This document shows, piece by piece, positions 37,936 to 49,270 of a stretch of DNA of 64,000 nt. Position numbers and translations under genes: made by a program. The notes under the pieces are model-generated. The model did no database searches and had not been told where the DNA came from. It saw only the letters and a list, made by a program, of their open reading frames with translations. The stretch is from an uncultured SAR86 cluster bacterium (GTDB lineage: Bacteria; Pseudomonadota; Gammaproteobacteria; Magnimaribacterales; D2472), in the NCBI GenBank assembly GCA_902596165.1, contig CACJSU010000007.1, positions 1 through 64,000 on the forward strand, given 5' to 3'. Position 1 is the first letter of the stretch. Each line of letters starts with the position of its first letter.

Positions 37936-38994
37936 TTAGGCAGTGTCTCCATAATCCTGCATATGCTTTGCTGTTCTTTCGTTTGTGCCATACATAAAGT
38001 GATTTTCCATTTTCTCTCTATATTTACTTGCTGGGACAGTTAGCCCAACAGCTTCTGCTACTTCTCTTTGATGCATGGGGGTAGCTCCGCAACAAACACC
38101 GAGCAGCCTAATGCCTATACTGTGGACTTCTTTAAAGAATTCGCGCATCTCATATCTATTACAATATAGCGGATCTAAGGCAGTGGGGAATGTTCTCCCA
38201 TGTGGTGCATGGCAAGTACAACCATTATTATCGGGTAAATTGAAAAAAGTTGGATGCTCTTCAGTTGTTCTGAATGGAAGTGGCAAAGCAGCCATATGGC
38301 AGCTTATAGCCTCTCTTATTTCTTTTAAATAAGGAAGCATGGTCTGCGGCCCTCTAAAACAGTTCATTCCAACGACGTCGGCACCCCTTTGCTCAAGCTC
38401 CTTACATGTATCAACTATTGAAACCCCATCGCGCATAATATTTTCTCCCATCGGAGCAATATTTATGACCGAAGGCAGTCCAGACTTTTGAATAATTTCA
38501 AGTGCTTTATATGCTTCTTCGGCATAATAAAAAGTTTCTCCCATAATTAAATCAGCTCCTTCATCTACAGCCCATTCAACCATTTCATTAAACATGCGCT
38601 CCACTTCAAGCTGAGAGTCCTTGTTGCCCTCTTCCCAAATATTAGAATTTGAAATATTGCCGGACATTAAATTGGGCTCTCCTCCACCAATAGGATTATC
38701 GGCAACTTTTTTTGCAATTTTAAGAGCAGCTCTATTGAGTGGCTCCAGAAGCTCCTCCTTACCAATAACTCTCATTTTTTCTCTATGTCCGTTATAGGTA
38801 AAAGCCTGAACGATGTCAGATCCAGCATGTTGAAAATCCTTATGAAGATTCTCTAAAGCCTCTGGGTGCTCCAATGCAACCATGGGCACAAACTCGCCCG
38901 AAGCCAAATAGCCTCTTTTTTCTACCTCAAATAAAAAGCCCTCAGCGCAAATTACTGGGCCCTCATCTAATCTTTCAAGTAATTGTCTTTTCAT
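37936..38994 (-). CDS. Betaine-homocysteine methyltransferase-like enzyme
   Basis: 352-residue homocysteine S-methyltransferase barrel. Zinc ligands are the cysteine in GMNCFRGP and the C-terminal pair in LLGVCCGATP. The N-terminal EGFLFEVEKRGYL and QAFTYNGHREKM resemble BHMT. It would use betaine or a related methyl donor to make methionine. I chose ATG 38994 because GAGG lies ten bases upstream; the open frame extends to a TTG at 39009. The 5' leader contains a SAM-II/SAM-V-like riboswitch candidate and a second hairpin, supporting a methionine-cycle role. Confidence 0.88.
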   Translation of the reverse strand: MKRQLLERLDEGPVICAEGFLFEVEKRGYLASGEFVPMVALEHPEALENLHKDFQHAGSDIVQAFTYNGHREKMRVIGKEELLEPLNRAALKIAKKVADNPIGGGEPNLMSGNISNSNIWEEGNKDSQLEVERMFNEMVEWAVDEGADLIMGETFYYAEEAYKALEIIQKSGLPSVINIAPMGENIMRDGVSIVDTCKELEQRGADVVGMNCFRGPQTMLPYLKEIREAISCHMAALPLPFRTTEEHPTFFNLPDNNGCTCHAPHGRTFPTALDPLYCNRYEMREFFKEVHSIGIRLLGVCCGATPMHQREVAEAVGLTVPASKYREKMENHFMYGTNERTAKHMQDYGDTA

Positions 38995-39014
38995 ATTTAT
39001 ATACCTCAAATTAA

Positions 39015-39172: not shown

Positions 39173-40441
39173 CTAACTCAGATCGTCTCTAGGCTTAAAT
39201 TCCAGCACGGTAGCATTAATACAGTATCTTGGCATTCCGTTAGGGCCGTCTGGAAACACATGCCCCAAATGAATATCTGAGGTAACAGATCTTATTTCTG
39301 TCCTTCGCAATCCATAGCTATTATCAGGCTTTGTATAAACAGAACCCTTGATTGGAGCCGTAAATGACAGCCATCCCGTATTGGAATTAAACCTGTCTTT
39401 GGTATCGAATAATGGAGCACCACTTAATTTATCAACAAAAATACCATCGGGGGTATTTTTAAAAATTTCATACTCTTTGCAAAATCTTGCATCTGTTCCC
39501 TGCTGAAAGGCAACTTTGTAAGCTTCTGAATCTCTGAGCTTAAAGTAGCCAAGAGCTTCATAAAATTCTTTAGGGCTAAGGTACCCCTGATAACCAAAAG
39601 ATTCTTTTCCATTTTCCAAAAATAAAATAGTTGGAGTCGCCCATGTGGGAGATTTAATCTCTAAGCCCTGAAGTTGGTTAGCTAGCCTAAACACTAAGGG
39701 AATATCGCCATAATAGTTCTTAACAACATCTGATCTAAATTTGTCACAATAGGGGCAATAGCCTTCTGCTTCAATCACGATCATATGCTTTCCTGAAAGC
39801 AAGTCTGAATTATCAAGAATTTCAATAGTTTCTTTTTTTACAAACTTAACCCCCGTTGAATGATCTGGGCAATACCCATTTGGATTTTTTGCTATATAGT
39901 CTTGATGATATTTTTCTGCTTTGTAAAACTTTCTAATTGGCTTTACTGAGGTTGCAATGGAGCCATAACCTGCTGCTGACAAAAGCTCTTGAAAGGTTTT
40001 AAGAACCCTATCAATTACTTTCTTTTGCTCTGCAGTTGAATACAAAATGATAGATCTATACTGGGTACCAATATCATTTCCCTGTCGATTTAGCTGAGTG
40101 GGATCATGAGACTCAAAATAATGCATTAAAAGCTGTTCAGTAGAAATAATATTCTTGTTATAAGTTACCTCAACTACCTCTGCATGATTGTTATCATTAA
40201 ATTTATTTTTAAGTTTTGTAATTTCCCTATAAGTTGCTCGAACGCCTTTTCCGTCGGCATAACCAGAAACAGCATCAATAACCCCAGGCAAAGATTCATA
40301 ACCCTTTTCTGCTCCCCAAAAACAACCTGAGCCTAAAACGATTTTTTCTGAATGAACGGTAGCATCAATGGTAGAAGCAGACAGTAAGCCCCAAAAGAAT
40401 GGAGAGATCAGTATGTATAAAAAGAGTATTGATTTTTTCAT
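39173..40441 (-). CDS. msrAB: Exported MsrA-thioredoxin-MsrB methionine sulfoxide reductase fusion
   Basis: 422 residues, signal peptide at about 1-23, then three domains. MsrA (about 33-195) has its catalytic cysteine in GSGCFWG (C40). A thioredoxin-like domain (about 205-305) has C229-P-Y-C232. MsrB (about 315-415) has catalytic C407 in RYCIN and the GHVFPDGP signature. MsrA reduces S- and MsrB R-methionine sulfoxide, and the central domain could recycle them. The order differs from Neisseria PilB (thioredoxin-MsrA-MsrB). ATG at 40441 follows an in-frame TTG. Confidence 0.9.
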   Translation of the reverse strand: MKKSILFLYILISPFFWGLLSASTIDATVHSEKIVLGSGCFWGAEKGYESLPGVIDAVSGYADGKGVRATYREITKLKNKFNDNNHAEVVEVTYNKNIISTEQLLMHYFESHDPTQLNRQGNDIGTQYRSIILYSTAEQKKVIDRVLKTFQELLSAAGYGSIATSVKPIRKFYKAEKYHQDYIAKNPNGYCPDHSTGVKFVKKETIEILDNSDLLSGKHMIVIEAEGYCPYCDKFRSDVVKNYYGDIPLVFRLANQLQGLEIKSPTWATPTILFLENGKESFGYQGYLSPKEFYEALGYFKLRDSEAYKVAFQQGTDARFCKEYEIFKNTPDGIFVDKLSGAPLFDTKDRFNSNTGWLSFTAPIKGSVYTKPDNSYGLRRTEIRSVTSDIHLGHVFPDGPNGMPRYCINATVLEFKPRDDLS

Positions 40442-40456
40442 CAAGCAAACATTTTA

Positions 40457-41742: not shown

Positions 41743-42390
41743 CTATTTTTTTCCAGTTAAAACCAAGGTTCCCGCCCAGTCCTTGGATTGATTGGCTCGC
41801 CAGCTTTTAATATGATTAAAACCTGCTTGCATAAAAAAATTGACCCATTCTGTCTCTTTAAACATTTGCATTCTGGTGCCTACTTTTTCTTCCCAGGAAT
41901 GGGAATCACTATTTTCATGGTACAAATCTATGCCGACGATTAGTCTTCCTCCCTCGTTTAGCCAAGAGTTAGCTATTTTTTTTAATATCGCAGCTGGGTT
42001 TTCTAGATAGTAGAGCACTTCCATCGAGTGAATGAGGTCATACCTTTGGGTAGGTTCGTGCTCATCAATATTGGCAAGAATATACTCCTCGCCGCCTCCT
42101 AGCTTTCTTGCTTTAGAAATCATTTGAGGGGCCCCATCAATACCATGGGCATAACTACAGGTTGATTTTTCAGCTATCTTTCTTACCACCCAACCATTAC
42201 CACAGCCCAAGTCTAAAAATGAAAAATTTTTATTAAGATGTTCTCTTTCCTTAATTGCAAAATCGAGCATTTCACTGACTGCTGCTGCATGGCCTTTTTC
42301 CATGCCAATGTCTTTACCTTGTTCTGCCCAGGTTCCAAAAACATCTACTGCTTTTTGCATTCTTTGATTAAAAGCTTTTTTGGTAGCCAA
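41743..42390 (-). CDS. Class I SAM methyltransferase
   Basis: About 215 residues. Motif I is FLDLGCGNGWVVRKI (about 60-74), then GIDGAPQMI and DLIHSMEVLYYLENP, typical of methyltransferase domain 25. The N-terminal WAEQGKDIGMEKGHAAAV is characteristic of a subgroup seen widely in bacteria; substrate unknown. The frame opens at TTG 42390 (23-base overlap with the upstream barrel gene); an ATG at 42360 is an alternative start. Confidence 0.83.
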   Translation of the reverse strand: MATKKAFNQRMQKAVDVFGTWAEQGKDIGMEKGHAAAVSEMLDFAIKEREHLNKNFSFLDLGCGNGWVVRKIAEKSTCSYAHGIDGAPQMISKARKLGGGEEYILANIDEHEPTQRYDLIHSMEVLYYLENPAAILKKIANSWLNEGGRLIVGIDLYHENSDSHSWEEKVGTRMQMFKETEWVNFFMQAGFNHIKSWRANQSKDWAGTLVLTGKK

Positions 42391-43453
42391 TGATGACTTG
42401 ATAATCTGTTTTCATTTGAAGATTATTCTTATTTTGATTAACAGGTTTTAGTATTTCAATGCCAATGCTGTCATTCCCGCTGAAAAAGATATCTAAATTA
42501 ATATTCATACCTAGACCGACAAATATTTCTGTGCCTCCATAGTTGTTAGGATTTGCTGTTTGAACAGGCGCCATGATTAATGGGTTTCTTCCAGACAAGG
42601 CGTCTTGATCGACAAACTTTAACCTGGAAGAAACAGAAACCTGTTTTGAAAATGGATACTGTATCCATGAATTAAACTCGGTTTGATCTCCAAAAGACCA
42701 ACCAGACTCTGATACAACCATCTTTCTTTTTAGTTGGGTGCCCCAAGTGATATCTTCATTAAGTTTCCTGGTGTTAGTTAGGCCAAAGATTAGGCTGGAT
42801 GAGCCATCCCCAGGCTGCATAGCATAGGGCATGATCATGCTCATCTTCTTGCCCATTGGAGTCAATACTTGCGCCATTGAGTCATCGCTGCCGATAGATT
42901 TTTTAAATGAAATCTCTCCATGCCATTTTGAATTCTTGATTTGGCTGATATGAAACAATGTACTCAAAGAAATATCTGAAAGATCGCTTGAAGACGTATT
43001 AAATTGGCCCACCAACCCTCTACCCATCATTGGAGAGTACGAATTAAGCTGCATATCTCTAGACACATATGTTGCCATCGCCATAAATGTTAAATTGTTT
43101 GATGGGGCATACATGACATCAATCATTGTCATTTTCATGTCCATGTTCTGGGGAACCACAGAGAGGTTTGCTGGCATGTTGCCTAGTGGATTAGGCATCT
43201 CTAAAATCTTTGAATTGCTTATGTTTTTTCCATCAAAGATATTGCCATGCATCTTCATCAATCCCTGCTTAATGGAGAACATAAATCCGCTGTGATGCAT
43301 GCTTCCCATAATCCCAATTGGAGCTAATGTGTGGCTCATAGAATGATGTTTTGAGTTCATTTTTTTCATTTTGGAATGATCATGCATTGGCTCTCCGTCT
43401 TCCGCAAAAAGACCAATTGAAATGCAAGCCAATGATATTAAAAGAAGCTTCAT
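42368..43453 (-). CDS. Met/His-rich outer-membrane barrel-like protein
   Basis: 361 residues with a signal peptide (about 1-17). The first 50 mature residues are packed with Met and His (HDHSKMKKMNSKHHSMSH), as in copper-handling proteins. The rest is beta-rich with alternating hydrophobics and a terminal Phe, as in outer-membrane barrels. No enzyme motif. The next genes downstream are a PepSY and a MerC protein, supporting a metal-related role, possibly copper. Family not identified with confidence. Confidence 0.65.
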   Translation of the reverse strand: MKLLLISLACISIGLFAEDGEPMHDHSKMKKMNSKHHSMSHTLAPIGIMGSMHHSGFMFSIKQGLMKMHGNIFDGKNISNSKILEMPNPLGNMPANLSVVPQNMDMKMTMIDVMYAPSNNLTFMAMATYVSRDMQLNSYSPMMGRGLVGQFNTSSSDLSDISLSTLFHISQIKNSKWHGEISFKKSIGSDDSMAQVLTPMGKKMSMIMPYAMQPGDGSSSLIFGLTNTRKLNEDITWGTQLKRKMVVSESGWSFGDQTEFNSWIQYPFSKQVSVSSRLKFVDQDALSGRNPLIMAPVQTANPNNYGGTEIFVGLGMNINLDIFFSGNDSIGIEILKPVNQNKNNLQMKTDYQVIIGYQKSF

Positions 43454-43992
43454 GATTTTTTGAAAAATAGTATCACGCCTGAAATAGAAGTAAATAAAGC
43501 AATAAATGAAAAAATTTTTAACAGCAAATTATCAATATTATCTCTATCTACCCAATCCATAATATGCAGACCCCACATCAAATCCCAGATTCTCCACTGA
43601 GCAGATCTTATGGCAACGATTTCGCCAGTAAATGGATCTTGATAAACATTGATTTCTTTGCCCTCATTGGAAAGGGAAACAGCTTTATACAAAGGTAATT
43701 TTCGTCCTCGATATTCTGAACCACGTTTTGACTCTTCAACAATCTCTATGGTTTGTGGCTGAAGGGTTGTTTCTTCTTCTATGATCTGCATTGCAGATTC
43801 AAAATCTAGCTTTTCTAATTTTGGGTTATTAGCTATTGATACATCTGTTTTAACAACACGATATTGCTCACCGCGCACATTTTCTATTTTATTGAAAGAA
43901 AAATAGATGCCCGAGACAGTCCATAAAAGGAGCTGAACTGCTATGAGAAGACTGATGTATCTATGAAATTTTCTTAAGGTAATTTTTGTCAT
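43450..43992 (-). CDS. PepSY-domain membrane protein
   Basis: 180 residues with membrane helices at about 12-31 and 156-178 and one PepSY-like domain between (external, with EEETTLQPQTIEIVEES and VYQDPFTGEIVAIRSAQWRIWDLMWGLHIMDW). Short PepSY-TM proteins often sit with metal transport or reductase genes. It overlaps the barrel gene by four bases and the MerC gene by one, so the three are coupled. Confidence 0.82.
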   Translation of the reverse strand: MTKITLRKFHRYISLLIAVQLLLWTVSGIYFSFNKIENVRGEQYRVVKTDVSIANNPKLEKLDFESAMQIIEEETTLQPQTIEIVEESKRGSEYRGRKLPLYKAVSLSNEGKEINVYQDPFTGEIVAIRSAQWRIWDLMWGLHIMDWVDRDNIDNLLLKIFSFIALFTSISGVILFFKKS

Positions 43993-44423
43993 TAATCATG
44001 ACATTCGCAAGCAAGTTCTTTGCAGGCTTTATAGTTTTTGTAGTGTGCAAAGGCAACTGTAATCGAACCCAACAAAGTTAGTGACTTCTCAGCAAACTCT
44101 CCAAGCACACCCTCTCCAAAAAAAACTGCAAAGATAAGGATCCACAAACCTGAAGTGCCTATATAAAAATATGAAAGAATCCTGTGGTTTCTGTAACCAG
44201 TGATCAAAGCATACAGACTCACCGGTAGCACTATTATTAGGAATACTTTGTGGATCAGCTCGTTATCTATCGACAGAGCAAAAAAACCGGAAGTTAAAAT
44301 TAAAAATGAAGGCATTAAAAGGCAATGAATCATGCATGCCATTGATAATGTAATTGATGCCTTGTCTGCGTTTACTTGTGTATTCATATCGTTTGAGGAG
44401 TTGATTCTATTGAACAAATTCAT
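43992..44423 (-). CDS. MerC-domain membrane protein
   Basis: 143 residues, four hydrophobic segments. The MerC signature is the cysteine pair in SMACMIHCLLMP (about 30-36) within helix 1, and the C-terminal CKELACECH adds three cysteines and a histidine. MerC proteins move mercury or other soft metals; chromosomal forms without mer genes probably handle another metal. It is the first gene of the coupled MerC-PepSY-barrel set. Confidence 0.85.
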   Translation of the reverse strand: MNLFNRINSSNDMNTQVNADKASITLSMACMIHCLLMPSFLILTSGFFALSIDNELIHKVFLIIVLPVSLYALITGYRNHRILSYFYIGTSGLWILIFAVFFGEGVLGEFAEKSLTLLGSITVAFAHYKNYKACKELACECHD

Positions 44424-44468: not shown

Positions 44469-45266
44469 CTACCAACTATCCCTTAATTTACGCAGACCAA
44501 TAAAGGTTTTTTGGTTATCTAGGCTTGCCACATCCAGATCAAGGCTTGATGCAAGCCCTTCCCGAACTTGATTTTCATTAAGTCTAAAAAAAACATTAAT
44601 TTGGCGCTCTAGACCAATATCACTAACAAAACTTTCTGCATCCAAGCCATTTTTAAATTTATCTCGCAGAGAAAGTGCAGTCTTATTATCAGGCTCACGA
44701 TCAAGAGTAAACTCTATATTGTTCTCAATGTAATCGTGGCCTGGGAAAATCCGAACATCATCAGCAAGTGGAAAAATATGATCCTCAAAAGTCTTGTGGA
44801 GAATTTTAGGCTCGCCACCAAAATCACACCTACCTACTCCTGCATTAAAAAGTGTGTCTCCACAAAATAATGCGGGTTGCTCATCTGAATTACCAGGATA
44901 ATATAAACAGATATGACTCATCGTATGGCCGGGTGTGTCCAATACTTTTAAAATAAAGTCGCCACACTGCAACTCATCTCCAGCATTCAAGCCCCTGTTT
45001 ACGTTGGGTATCGCATCCATTGCATCTTGATGAGAAACCAGTTCAGCACCCGTCGCAGCAATCACTGGACCATTACCACCAATATGATCATGATGGTGAT
45101 GAGTGTTAGCCACTATTGTTATCTTCCATCCCATTGCATTTGCCGTCTCAAGACATAAGGCATGATCCAATGGATCTATGGCTATTGCCTCAGATGTGTT
45201 TTCACATGCCATTAGGTACATATAATTTTTAAGGTCGTTTCGGATAGGTATTTGCTTTATTAGCAT
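44469..45266 (-). CDS. gloB: Hydroxyacylglutathione hydrolase (glyoxalase II)
   Basis: Metallo-beta-lactamase-fold enzyme hydrolysing S-lactoylglutathione to lactate and glutathione. The binuclear metal motif is THHHHDHIGGN at about 55-65, with GHTMSHICLY, CGDTLFNAGVGRCDFGG and FPGHDY. 265 residues is standard. The gene's 5' region holds a tiny cysteine-rich ORF ending in a stem-loop, 61 bases before the gloB start, which might make expression depend on cysteine supply. Confidence 0.95.
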   Translation of the reverse strand: MLIKQIPIRNDLKNYMYLMACENTSEAIAIDPLDHALCLETANAMGWKITIVANTHHHHDHIGGNGPVIAATGAELVSHQDAMDAIPNVNRGLNAGDELQCGDFILKVLDTPGHTMSHICLYYPGNSDEQPALFCGDTLFNAGVGRCDFGGEPKILHKTFEDHIFPLADDVRIFPGHDYIENNIEFTLDREPDNKTALSLRDKFKNGLDAESFVSDIGLERQINVFFRLNENQVREGLASSLDLDVASLDNQKTFIGLRKLRDSW

Positions 45267-45326: not shown

Positions 45327-45348
45327 ATTGTTGCTTATGAGCAACAAT
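45327..45348 (-). promoter_or_regulatory. Stem-loop at the end of the Cys-rich ORF (possible attenuator)
   Basis: Perfect nine-base-pair arms ATTGTTGCT / AGCAACAAT with a four-base loop. On the - strand the 5' arm covers the last Cys codons and the stop codon lies at the loop/3' arm junction; T-rich TAAAGTCTTTCTTTT follows. This fits a rho-independent-like or attenuating hairpin, although the T-run is interrupted. Confidence 0.55.
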
Positions 45349-45379
45349 CGCAGTTACAACAGCTACAGCAATCACACAT
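45335..45379 (-). CDS. 14-residue cysteine-rich leader-type peptide
   Basis: An ATG-to-TAA frame encodes MCDCCSCCNCDCCS, eight cysteines in fourteen residues. It is read toward gloB and its last codons form the 5' arm of a perfect hairpin. Two readings are possible: a leader peptide whose translation senses charged tRNA-Cys, or a metallothionein-like metal-binding micropeptide. I see no good ribosome site, so translation is uncertain, but the run of Cys codons framed by start and stop is unlikely to be accidental. Confidence 0.5.
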   Translation of the reverse strand: MCDCCSCCNCDCCS

Positions 45380-45454
45380 ACGCTTAATATAAACTAAATT
45401 AACAATTATTTCATTTCTTGCTAATTATCAATCTAAAAATTCTTTTATTTTTTT

Positions 45455-45509
45455 TAAAATGTAACCTTTACTTCCCATAATAATAATGATAAGTTTACGT
45501 TACATTTTA
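45455..45509 (+). promoter_or_regulatory. Promoter/operator with 11-bp inverted repeat
   Basis: TAAAATGTAAC (45455-45465) and its exact complement GTTACATTTTA (45499-45509) flank a 33-base A+T-rich centre containing TAATAAT-like -10 candidates. The right half ends just before the AAGGAG ribosome site of the first gene in an operon that encodes its own Xre-type regulator (46837-47049). An autoregulatory operator is therefore likely, though the halves could also pair in RNA. Confidence 0.55.
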
Positions 45510-45523
45510 GCAAGGAGAAAATA

Positions 45524-45742
45524 ATGAAACACTCTTCAAACGAAAAGGGAAATTTAATGATGTATGTAGGCCTTGGGTTTGGTCTGTTTGGCGTTGTTTT
45601 ATATGATCCGTTAGGATTGTTATTTCAAGGCACAGGATTAATGGTTATCGGGCTAGGTCTAATTTGCATGTATGTAGGTTATAAGCATTCAAGTGAAGTT
45701 GAGGCGGTTAACAAAGCCGTTGAAAACTTCGAAAAAAGATAG
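45524..45742 (+). CDS. Small membrane protein, tail motif AVxxFEK (1)
   Basis: 72 residues: two membrane segments (about 12-32 and 36-56) and a short charged tail ending NKAVENFEKR. A strong ribosome site (AAGGAG) precedes the ATG. Similar tails end the next two proteins, marking a set of related small membrane proteins. Function unknown; it is the first gene of an operon with an Xre regulator. Confidence 0.75.
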   Translation: MKHSSNEKGNLMMYVGLGFGLFGVVLYDPLGLLFQGTGLMVIGLGLICMYVGYKHSSEVEAVNKAVENFEKR

Positions 45743-45751
45743 GAGAACATC

Positions 45752-46147
45752 ATGGGTCCAGAAACAATAGTGCCTGTATTGGGGATAATGACCGGAATAA
45801 TAATACCTGTATCAGTTTTTATTTGGCTGTATTTTGAAAGCAAGGATAAAAATAAAACAATATTAGAGATATCTAAAAATATTGATGATCCTTCAAAGAT
45901 GCAAGACTTAATTGGCATGCTTGATGAAAGAAAGAAAGAGCCAATTGATTATAGAAGAACTGGTGTGGTTACCCTTTTTACTGGCGTGGGTCTTTTTCTT
46001 TTTGGTGTCTTCTTTTTAGGAGAAATCTTAATGGGGGTTGGAGCATTAGTAACTGCCATCGGCATTGGGCAAATTATTGCTGGCTATCTTTATCCCAATA
46101 CAAGTGAAGAAATAAATCAGGCTGTAGATGCGTTTGAAAAGAAATAA
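45752..46147 (+). CDS. DUF6249-like membrane protein, tail motif AVxxFEK (2)
   Basis: 131 residues: an N-terminal helix (about 8-28), a cytoplasmic linker (29-70, charged, with SKMQDLIGMLDERKKE), two more helices (71-114) and the tail NQAVDAFEKK. The layout resembles DUF6249-type proteins. It starts nine bases after the previous gene with AGGAGA upstream. Function unknown. Confidence 0.72.
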   Translation: MGPETIVPVLGIMTGIIIPVSVFIWLYFESKDKNKTILEISKNIDDPSKMQDLIGMLDERKKEPIDYRRTGVVTLFTGVGLFLFGVFFLGEILMGVGALVTAIGIGQIIAGYLYPNTSEEINQAVDAFEKK

Positions 46148-46157
46148 TAGAGTAAGG

Positions 46158-46400
46158 ATGAATAAATTTACAGTAAAGAATTGGGCTGAAATTTCACAGG
46201 GCCTCGGCGTAGGGATTGGGTTTATCAACTTTTATGTACTTTATTACTCATGGCACATTTCTTGGGGAATAAGCTTTGCTATTGCCTTTGGACTAGGCTA
46301 CCTAGCTAGTGTTTTTTTTGAGCATTATGTAGGCGATAAACTTGAGAATACAGAGGCCAAGGAGCTCTCTGATGCTGTTGAAGAATTTGAGGAGAAATAA
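46158..46400 (+). CDS. Small membrane protein, tail motif AVxxFEE (3)
   Basis: 80 residues, two hydrophobic segments (about 17-36 and 40-58) and the tail ELSDAVEEFEEK. I chose ATG 46158 because GTAAGG directly precedes it; the frame is open ten codons further upstream inside the previous gene. Third member of the tandem set sharing a C-terminal motif. Confidence 0.72.
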   Translation: MNKFTVKNWAEISQGLGVGIGFINFYVLYYSWHISWGISFAIAFGLGYLASVFFEHYVGDKLENTEAKELSDAVEEFEEK

Positions 46401-46844
46401 ATGACCTTTTTCAAACGTTTTTTAGTGCTTTTTATATGTGGCGCTGTTCAAGTTTTTTTTGCAACCTACCTGTTGCTTGAATTGCTTGGCTTTGGTTTGG
46501 CTTGGCACCTCATGAATCATGACATGATGTTTATTCCTGGCATTTTGGTTTTCTTGGGATCTGGGTACTTAACATTTTCTTACTACTTTCTAAGTGACGA
46601 ACAATCTAATAATGCTTTGTATGATGAATTTAATGCGCTTAGATATTACAAACTTGCTACAGCGGGGTATGTAATCAATGGGATTGGTATTTTTGTTCTA
46701 TACTCTATGCAGGATTGGTCTAATTGGAGCTTTGCACTGGCCAATAATATGATTTATCAAATCGCAGCTTTTGCATGGCTAATTTTTGGGGTGCTTTTAG
46801 TTTGGTTTGCTCTTGGTGATTTAAGAGAATCACGAAATGGGTAA
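46401..46844 (+). CDS. Four-helix membrane protein of unknown function
   Basis: 147 residues, four membrane segments (about 5-28, 40-62, 85-104 and 112-138). It starts one base after the preceding stop and overlaps the regulator gene by eight bases, so it is coupled to both. No known family recognised; it lacks the AVxxFEK tail. Confidence 0.7.
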   Translation: MTFFKRFLVLFICGAVQVFFATYLLLELLGFGLAWHLMNHDMMFIPGILVFLGSGYLTFSYYFLSDEQSNNALYDEFNALRYYKLATAGYVINGIGIFVLYSMQDWSNWSFALANNMIYQIAAFAWLIFGVLLVWFALGDLRESRNG

Positions 46845-47049
46845 GAGCCACGAAAAACTTTTAAATAATTTAGAGGACCTGCGAAAATCTTCTGGCTTAA
46901 CGCAACAAGAACTGTCTGAAAGCGCTGAGGTTTCTAGAAAAAGCATTAATGCCATTGAGAATGGCATCTACGTTCCTTCCACAGTGCTGGCATTAAAGAT
47001 AGCTAAAACTCTTGATTGCACTGTTGAGGAACTGTTTAAACTGCCTTAA
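46837..47049 (+). CDS. Xre/Cro-CI type HTH regulator
   Basis: 70-residue single-domain HTH_3 protein: LEDLRKSSGLTQQELSESAEVSRKSINAIENGIYVPSTVLALKIAKTL is a complete five-helix fold, closing with VEELFKLP. Such short regulators often accompany small membrane protein operons and control them. The inverted repeat at 45455-45509 is the natural candidate operator. Confidence 0.88.
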   Translation: MGKSHEKLLNNLEDLRKSSGLTQQELSESAEVSRKSINAIENGIYVPSTVLALKIAKTLDCTVEELFKLP

Positions 47050-47967: not shown

Positions 47968-48861
47968 TTATAATTTTTCAACAACTCTTTTAATCTCTTT
48001 TATGTGATCAATTGTTGTTCTGCAGCATCCACCAATTACGGATGCCCCACTATTAATCCAATCCATTACAAAATCCTTGTAGTCAACAGGAGTAATAGGT
48101 TGATGATTGTGATAATGCCATTCATCCGAATCGCTCACAAACCCCTCTAGCTTGTTTTTTTTGTAGATTGAAGAGTTGGCGTATATCCCAAAGCTTTTTT
48201 CTTTTTTTAGTTTTTCAATTGCCATGCTTGCTGTATCTGCATGAACGCAATTGACCAATTGGCAATCAACATCCAATTTAAGGCCCTCACTAATTGCAAG
48301 ATCTAACAGCTCAGTGCTTGGCAACCTATTAAGCTTGTTGCTTCTGGTTGTCCAGCTTAGCCACACTGTATCAGAAAATTTTTTTGCTGTGGATGCGGCA
48401 ATAATACCCTCATAAATTGATGCCATGGTCTCACAAATAATGACATCCACTTCACCTCTATAAACTTCGCCCAATGTCTCATAGAACTTTCTTAATTTTT
48501 TTTCATTTGGGCTCAAATCTGGTCTGAAAGTTACGTGAATTGGAGGATAACATCCAGCTATCTTGGTTTGTGTCCCAGTTTTAATTACTGCTTCTTTGCA
48601 TAATTCTAGCGATCGCTTTGCTAAATCTTCATACGGGGGTGCTGATGGCTCACGTTTTAACAATTCAGGAGTAGCTTGATAGTTTGATGTAGTAATAACA
48701 TCTGCACCGGCTTCTATATTATCAATATGAATTTGTTTAATAACTTCTGGATTATGTATTAAGGAATAAGCTGACCAAATAGAGGTTTTGAAGCTGGGGA
48801 GATACTCGCCACGGTTTTCAAGTTCTGTGCCAAGCGCTGAATCTAATATTAAAGGTTTCAT
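47968..48861 (-). CDS. mmuM: Homocysteine S-methyltransferase
   Basis: 297-residue homocysteine methyltransferase barrel beginning MKPLILDSALGTELENRG. Zinc ligands are the cysteine in QLVNCVH and the pair in IGGCCRTT. GADVITTSNYQA is typical of the MmuM/YagD group, which uses S-methylmethionine or SAM as methyl donor. ATG 48861 has GAGAG upstream; the open frame continues 19 codons into the DoxX gene. No SAM riboswitch is visible here, unlike the BHMT-like paralogue. Confidence 0.87.
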   Translation of the reverse strand: MKPLILDSALGTELENRGEYLPSFKTSIWSAYSLIHNPEVIKQIHIDNIEAGADVITTSNYQATPELLKREPSAPPYEDLAKRSLELCKEAVIKTGTQTKIAGCYPPIHVTFRPDLSPNEKKLRKFYETLGEVYRGEVDVIICETMASIYEGIIAASTAKKFSDTVWLSWTTRSNKLNRLPSTELLDLAISEGLKLDVDCQLVNCVHADTASMAIEKLKKEKSFGIYANSSIYKKNKLEGFVSDSDEWHYHNHQPITPVDYKDFVMDWINSGASVIGGCCRTTIDHIKEIKRVVEKL

Positions 48862-48871
48862 TTGTTGTCTC

Positions 48872-49270
48872 TCAGGAGTTATTAAAGAGCCTCCATTGAC
48901 TAATATTATGGCTTGCACTTAATACAAGCAACCCGGCAAAAATCCCTAGGTTTTTAACAAAATTTTGCATTTCTCTACCAGCATCTGTGTTGGGGTATTC
49001 GTTCCAAAAATCATGCATTCCGAAGTTTATTAATATGGTTAAAGCTGCAAGGATTATTGCCGGTTCCTTGATGCGATATCCAGTGATGAGCATCAACCCT
49101 AGCGCTATCTGCAATACAATGGTTATTGGCAACAGAATGTTTACAAGAGGCACATTGTGAAGAGTCATATATTCAAGCATAAAATCATAGCGTGGAATTT
49201 TTGTAATTCCAGGATATAAAAAATATAAGCCAAGCAATATTCTTCCAGTTGTAATTAAAAATTTTTCCAT
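48872..49270 (-). CDS. DoxX family membrane protein
   Basis: 132 residues, four helices. The opening GRILLGLYFLYPGITKI and the LQIALGLMLITGYRIKEPA segment match DoxX/DoxD-like quinone-linked membrane proteins. Precise role unknown. Ten bases separate it from the methyltransferase and it follows the GFA gene by ten bases, a possible three-gene transcript. Confidence 0.83.
   Translation of the reverse strand: MEKFLITTGRILLGLYFLYPGITKIPRYDFMLEYMTLHNVPLVNILLPITIVLQIALGLMLITGYRIKEPAIILAALTILINFGMHDFWNEYPNTDAGREMQNFVKNLGIFAGLLVLSASHNISQWRLFNNS

Follow-up and report, generated by a model that had tools for sequence, protein, structure and literature searches.

A conserved eight-cysteine micro-gene of SAR86 bacteria and its candidate role in metal or thiol binding

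A 14-codon open reading frame (sORF) from an uncultured SAR86 bacterium is best read as a leaderless micro-gene whose product would be a trans-acting, metallothionein-like Cys micropeptide that binds metals or thiols. We give this reading a probability of about one half; its main rival is a leader that senses cysteine or metal. The sORF lies in a window of 64,000 nucleotides, the whole stretch of DNA that was analyzed, and the closest named relatives of the window are SAR86 single-cell genomes. SAR86 is one of the abundant surface-ocean bacterial groups. The gene, at 14 codons, is shorter than gene finders usually accept and is easily overlooked; SAR86 has kept it with invariant Cys spacing. 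Should its peptide prove to bind metals, it would rank as a minimal chelator encoded by a gene and offer a way into metal handling in oligotrophs that are mostly uncultured. Phages also carry it, which points to a function of use to them during infection. If the sORF is a leader instead, leaderless cysteine-rich regulation would be extended to Gammaproteobacteria.

The sORF and its conservation

The sORF, identified as an ORF and through its conservation, is located on the minus strand, which the earlier note left unnamed, at 45335-45379, stop codon included. As the earlier note described, it runs for 14 codons from an ATG (45379-45377) to a TAA (45337-45335). It encodes MCDCCSCCNCDCCS, a peptide with eight Cys that make up more than half of its residues.

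Relatives were initially collected as close orthologs of the downstream gloB-like gene, found by protein homology alone and without use of the ORF. A close ortholog is found in 17 genomes of the genus, counting that of the window, and 14 of them keep all eight Cys upstream of gloB. Among these 14, Cys codons change at their third bases, and replacements are confined to spacer residues and the tail. G005, G012, and G014, also of the window's genus, have gloB and lack both the ORF and the hairpin stem that spans its stop codon. The earlier note had named such a loss as grounds for abandoning its proposal of a gloB regulator; it is seen in 3 of the 17 genomes, and the Cys codons are nonetheless constrained.

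The first Cys-spacing pattern led to the homologs MCDCCKCCECSCCTK and MCDCCKCCECSCCSK in another family of the order. The general pattern MCxCCxCCxCxCC is found in 71 of 203 SAR86-order genomes and 10 of 22 genera, nearly always as one copy per genome, and the spacing is common to three SAR86 families. Many of the genomes are incomplete, so the absence counts are soft. The reversed control pattern has 0 matches in the same 203 genomes. Outside SAR86, the pattern was absent from scans of 398 genomes of the phylum (Pseudomonadota) and 369 of the class, and from a further phylum scan with another center (0/369, largely the same genomes).

Across 55 distinct SAR86 loci, the Cys codons show TGT/TGC swaps only, and the codons for the x positions vary. 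The family peptides have 13-19 residues, composed of M-C-x-C-C-x-C-C-x-C-x-C-C and a short tail that usually ends in Lys. The fixed 13-residue core has no aromatic residues, and its spacers are hydrophilic and vary freely. Cys residues stand singly or in pairs with one residue between them along the whole peptide, and there is no contiguous run of Cys codons.

The search pattern itself fixes the spacing, so its invariance was tested by mismatch and relaxed-gap scans; only exact or near-exact spacing can be searched efficiently. Allowing two mismatches adds only four places in SAR86: a truncation in G147 by a premature stop at the last Cys, a Cys to Tyr change in G050, the N-terminal variant MTNCDCCSCCECACCPK in G028, which keeps the spacing, and one repeat tract. 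A variable-gap scan of 49 SAR86 genomes that lack the exact pattern gave chance matches only, judging by the examples read. Alternative Cys spacings in SAR86 were thus set aside as chance, such as one antisense to a dnaN-like gene. A Cys-rich match in G040 was also rejected; it lies inside a long open frame and is not a short ORF.

At the level of sequence, these comparisons confirm the sORF as a real, selected coding sequence whose Cys codons are under strong constraint. With only 14 codons, the frame could in principle be open by accident, either as a chance ORF or as part of a non-coding element (an sRNA or a terminator, for instance). This is hardly credible, being contradicted by the codon-position pattern, the occurrence in SAR86 against no control matches, the fixed promoter distance, and the phage copies. 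The sORF is the SAR86 form of a conserved micro-gene family. No description of this Cys-peptide family was found in the open-access literature.

Promoter and leaderless start

Upstream of the sORF, a -10 box (TATATT, minus strand, 45386-45391) ends 6 nt 5' of the ATG. A TATAAT-like hexamer with at least five of six positions matching stands exactly 6 nt before the ATG in 51 of the 55 distinct SAR86 loci, and the G028 variant retains this distance. The same geometry occurs at 17 of 311 other ORFs in those loci (5.5%). Position frequencies show the TATAAT-like box together with a TTAGTT-like extension and no strong -35 element. With the box 6 nt before the ATG, the transcription start site is expected at the ATG itself, and the mRNA is therefore probably leaderless. 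The sORF would be transcribed from this TATAAT-type promoter, translated as a leaderless mRNA, and would usually be the first cistron of a transcript that runs into whatever genes follow. As a mark of a wider regulon, the combination of GTTTATANT, 6 nt, and ATG was rejected; it occurs about one to two times per genome, near the level of the reversed control, and defines no regulon.

The earlier note compared the sORF to the Cys-rich regulators of mycobacteria, and the resemblance holds. Leaderless short ORFs have been described in mycobacteria (Shell 2015, PMC4633059). Polycysteine leaderless sORFs are attenuators there and precede genes such as cysA2 (Canestrari 2020, cited in PMC9031893 and PMC9094748). 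Like the SAR86 sORF, these are short, leaderless, rich in Cys codons, and usually the first cistron of an operon. In the mycobacterial sORFs, the Cys codons adjoin one another or gather at the end, in contrast to the fixed, interrupted spacing along the whole SAR86 peptide. The neighbors of the SAR86 sORF also vary, and phages carry the peptide behind a Shine-Dalgarno site.

From this precedent (PMC9031893, PMC9094748, and PMC4633059), the sORF may be a cysteine-responsive leader. A shortage of cysteine or charged tRNA-Cys would slow ribosomes at the Cys codons, and the operon behind would then be transcribed (e.g., through Rho polarity) or translated differently, the hairpin being an accessory of the window's genus. 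A Cys-dense, leaderless, promoter-proximal sORF is what such a leader would look like. The exact Cys spacing over three families and phages is harder to reconcile with it, as codon counting needs none. We consider a cysteine-responsive leader possible but unlikely, and the downstream genes and the hairpin, described below, bear on it as well.

Downstream and neighboring genes

All four genes that follow the sORF in the window are on the minus strand. The first, at 44469-45266, encodes a gloB-like hydroxyacylglutathione hydrolase with Lactamase_B and HAGH_C domains, scoring 179.7 bits against TIGR03413, under the cut-off of 200.8. The earlier note had correctly placed the ORF and stem upstream of gloB; the distances to the gloB ATG (45266) are 68 nt from the stop codon and 60 nt from the stem. 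It is followed by genes for a MerC-family membrane protein (43992-44423; PF03203, 90.7 bits), a recurrent neighbor of the sORF, and a PepSY_TM protein (43450-43992; PF03929); in another SAR86 family, a PepSY_TM gene follows the sORF immediately or almost so. The fourth, at 42368-43453, encodes a Met/His-rich protein with a signal-like N terminus and no Pfam or NCBIfam match, whose homologs adjoin the sORF in other genera (cluster C4). It is probably an outer-membrane, metal-related protein, as we infer from its composition and N terminus, and possibly a copper-related one. In another SAR86 family, a homologous pair of PepSY_TM and Met/His-rich genes lies directly or nearly directly behind the micro-gene.

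The gene next downstream, compared over 45 contexts, comes from 24 families and begins 12 to 267 nt away. Recognized first genes include those for MerC, PepSY_TM, the Met/His-rich protein, an alpha/beta hydrolase, gloB, and a beta-helix protein, among others. By family or sequence, most are not involved in sulfur metabolism. The sORF directly precedes gloB only in the window's genus; in G139 and G056, gloB lies 2.2-2.4 kb downstream. In nine other genera, the sORF stands before many other gene families. In G077 and G072, the gene behind it is convergent, at 60 and 35 nt. This array of unrelated first genes differs from the cysteine and sulfur operons headed by the mycobacterial sORFs and argues against a cysteine-responsive leader, as does a convergent gene behind two copies. 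In 43 of the 45 loci, the next gene is co-directional, as for a leader; the baseline is 90% (p = 0.17), and co-directionality was therefore dropped as evidence for one.

Of 202 genomes, 164 have MerC, nearly all of them as a single copy. For at least 33 of 74 sORF sites, MerC is on the same strand and no more than 6.5 kb away, compared to about 1% expected, although the sites are not independent, since genus-mates have contexts in common. MerC is downstream at 27 of these 33 sites and upstream at 6. The scoring leaves out 15 of the 74 sites, and at four of these MerC lies 2.3-2.8 kb downstream. At 26 of the 74 sites it is distant or on another contig, so the metal link is not universal. Together, the MerC, PepSY_TM, and Met/His-rich neighbors suggest a role in metals, with copper the first candidate. 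The micropeptide with MerC and PepSY genes nearby had been the second choice of the earlier note, and it fits the comparative data better than a gloB attenuator.

A cyclase-like gene (cluster C24) lies in reverse orientation beside or near the micro-gene in L232, L234, and L237, an arrangement suggestive of a gene-exchange hotspot.

The hairpin at the stop codon

The perfect stem of nine base pairs reported for the end of the ORF is present. It has a 4-nt loop and spans the stop codon; the 5' arm, ATTGTTGCT, is made of the last sORF codons (45348-45340), and the 3' arm, AGCAACAAT, takes in the final base of the TAA (45335-45327). The T-rich stretch said to follow it, TAAAGTCTTTCTTTT, is weak. 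The whole leader folds no better than its shuffles (z 0.03), and an Rfam search of the region gave no real match. In the window's genus, 90.9% of stem cells are paired, with one two-sided (compensatory) change and several G-U changes. Folding around the stop codon has a mean z of -1.74 in this genus and -0.61, near background, elsewhere. A T tract of at least five within 60 nt occurs at 4 of 12 loci in the genus and 19 of 43 elsewhere. A terminator-like hairpin with a U tract is thus not conserved; the stem is restricted to the window's genus and is a local feature of it. Of the conservation sought by the earlier note, the Cys codons bear it out and the hairpin does so only within this genus.

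The earlier note had favored a cysteine-sensing attenuator dedicated to gloB, in which the stem at the stop codon would be a terminator/antiterminator switch set by the position of the ribosome. The perfect stem over the last codons, 60 nt before gloB, and its pairing within the genus are in keeping with such a switch. The proposal does not survive comparison as a general mechanism, as it is contradicted by the distribution: in three genomes of the genus gloB stands without ORF or stem, other genera have other genes in this position, two copies are followed by convergent genes, and the stem is missing outside the genus. Scarce T tracts and unremarkable leader folding weaken it even in the genus, and we regard it as very improbable. 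A role in cis may be exerted by another route, through ribosome stalling and Rho polarity. The single compensatory change lends something to a cysteine-responsive leader; the confinement of conserved RNA structure to one genus counts against it.

A putative metal- or thiol-binding peptide

Metallothioneins, such as the bacterial SmtA and MymT types and the short fungal copper metallothioneins, are Cys-dense proteins with repeated C-C and C-x-C motifs and hydrophilic spacers. The SAR86 peptide, with eight Cys in 13-19 residues, C-C and C-x-C spacing, and an aromatic-free core, resembles them. It is far shorter; the likeness lies in the Cys pattern, and metal binding is putative. The doubled peptide had no match among sequences with solved structures, although such a query is too short and compositionally biased for this to weigh either way.

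The released peptide would most likely act in trans. Its eight thiols at fixed spacing may serve as ligands for soft metals such as copper, zinc, or mercury, in the manner of a minimal metallothionein; alternatively, the peptide could buffer reactive sulfur or electrophiles. Several observations argue against a micropeptide. Its length is extreme for a peptide that is presumed to be stable in the cytosol. The sORF is placed and oriented like a leader, though co-directionality does not significantly exceed the baseline, and the mycobacterial polycysteine sORFs are attenuators. Some pairing constraint in the genus stem would be needless for a pure peptide gene, and MerC is not always near. A dual role as leader and trans-acting peptide is possible; peTrpL is a leader peptide with known trans activity (PMC7298713).

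A nascent chain of 14 residues is still inside the ribosome tunnel, which weighs against a further reading, in which the sORF is a metal-sensing leader and metal capture by the Cys peptide shifts ribosome behavior and thereby operon expression. The model for it is CruR (DUF2946), a copper-responsive uORF with a CXXC motif and a C-terminal RAPP arrest motif, which heads operons that can include PepSY_TM genes (PMC9426467). Like CruR, the SAR86 sORF is a small Cys-bearing ORF at an operon head where PepSY_TM can follow, and the MerC and Met/His-rich neighbors suit a metal sensor. Unlike CruR, the SAR86 peptides have 13-19 residues and no RAPP; the motif is in no SAR86 or phage peptide, and the downstream gene is variable and sometimes absent. 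A CruR-like leader is therefore decidedly unlikely. The PepSY_TM protein CrpH sits in a copper operon, and a copper-linked PepSY_TM subfamily is described in the same paper (PMC13038864). CrpH is a related precedent for the micropeptide locus, the place of the window's PepSY_TM protein in that subfamily being only putative.

Phage copies

The exact pattern occurs in 24 viral-contig stretches, several of which are near-identical copies of one locus. In 23 of them the peptide is MC[STKR]CCKCC[NS]C[TND]CC, with an optional Glu. The phage copies are preceded by Shine-Dalgarno sites, and the gene that follows varies. In four viral contigs with genes listed, the peptide lies within a run of phage-type genes. 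The relatives of the phage contigs are T4-like, namely HTVC008M and Melnitz, with PHROG matches. The stretches read of the named relatives HTVC008M, Melnitz-2, and AG-345-L05 have no copy. Among the matches listed, a relaxed-gap viral scan gave exact-spacing peptides; the rest was noise, antisense or in repeats, and had no Shine-Dalgarno sites. Homology between the phage and SAR86 peptides is not provable at such a length; if they converged on the same spacing, this would be equally telling about function. In phage contig L190 (3577-4359), the Cys peptide is directly before genes for NifU_N (NifU-like) and Fe-S_biosyn (IscA-like) iron-sulfur assembly proteins.

The fixed thiol array with free spacers, the independence from the downstream gene, and the phage copies with their own ribosome sites together argue for selection on the peptide itself as the gene's product. 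A more specific picture is offered tentatively, at rather less than even odds. These eight-Cys peptides of 13-19 residues would work in trans, either as gene-encoded metallothioneins of extremely small size or as persulfide or electrophile carriers, encoded without leaders in much of SAR86 and carried by marine T4-like phages, with at least one copy before iron-sulfur assembly genes.

Other features of the window

On the other side of the sORF, an inverted repeat, AAAATGTAAC...GTTACATTTT, lies at 45455-45516 in the divergent region upstream of a small membrane protein gene at 45524. It may be an operator of the HTH protein encoded at 46837-47049. Genes for a DUF6249 protein and a small HTH regulator span 45752-47049, and in several further genera (L216, L238, L239, L240, and L248) their homologs lie close to the micro-gene. 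Farther away, a gene at 47968-48918 is homocysteine S-methyltransferase-like by family match, and a second such gene, recognized by eye, is at 37936-39009. Between the two lies a methionine sulfoxide reductase-like fusion (39173-40444), also recognized by eye.
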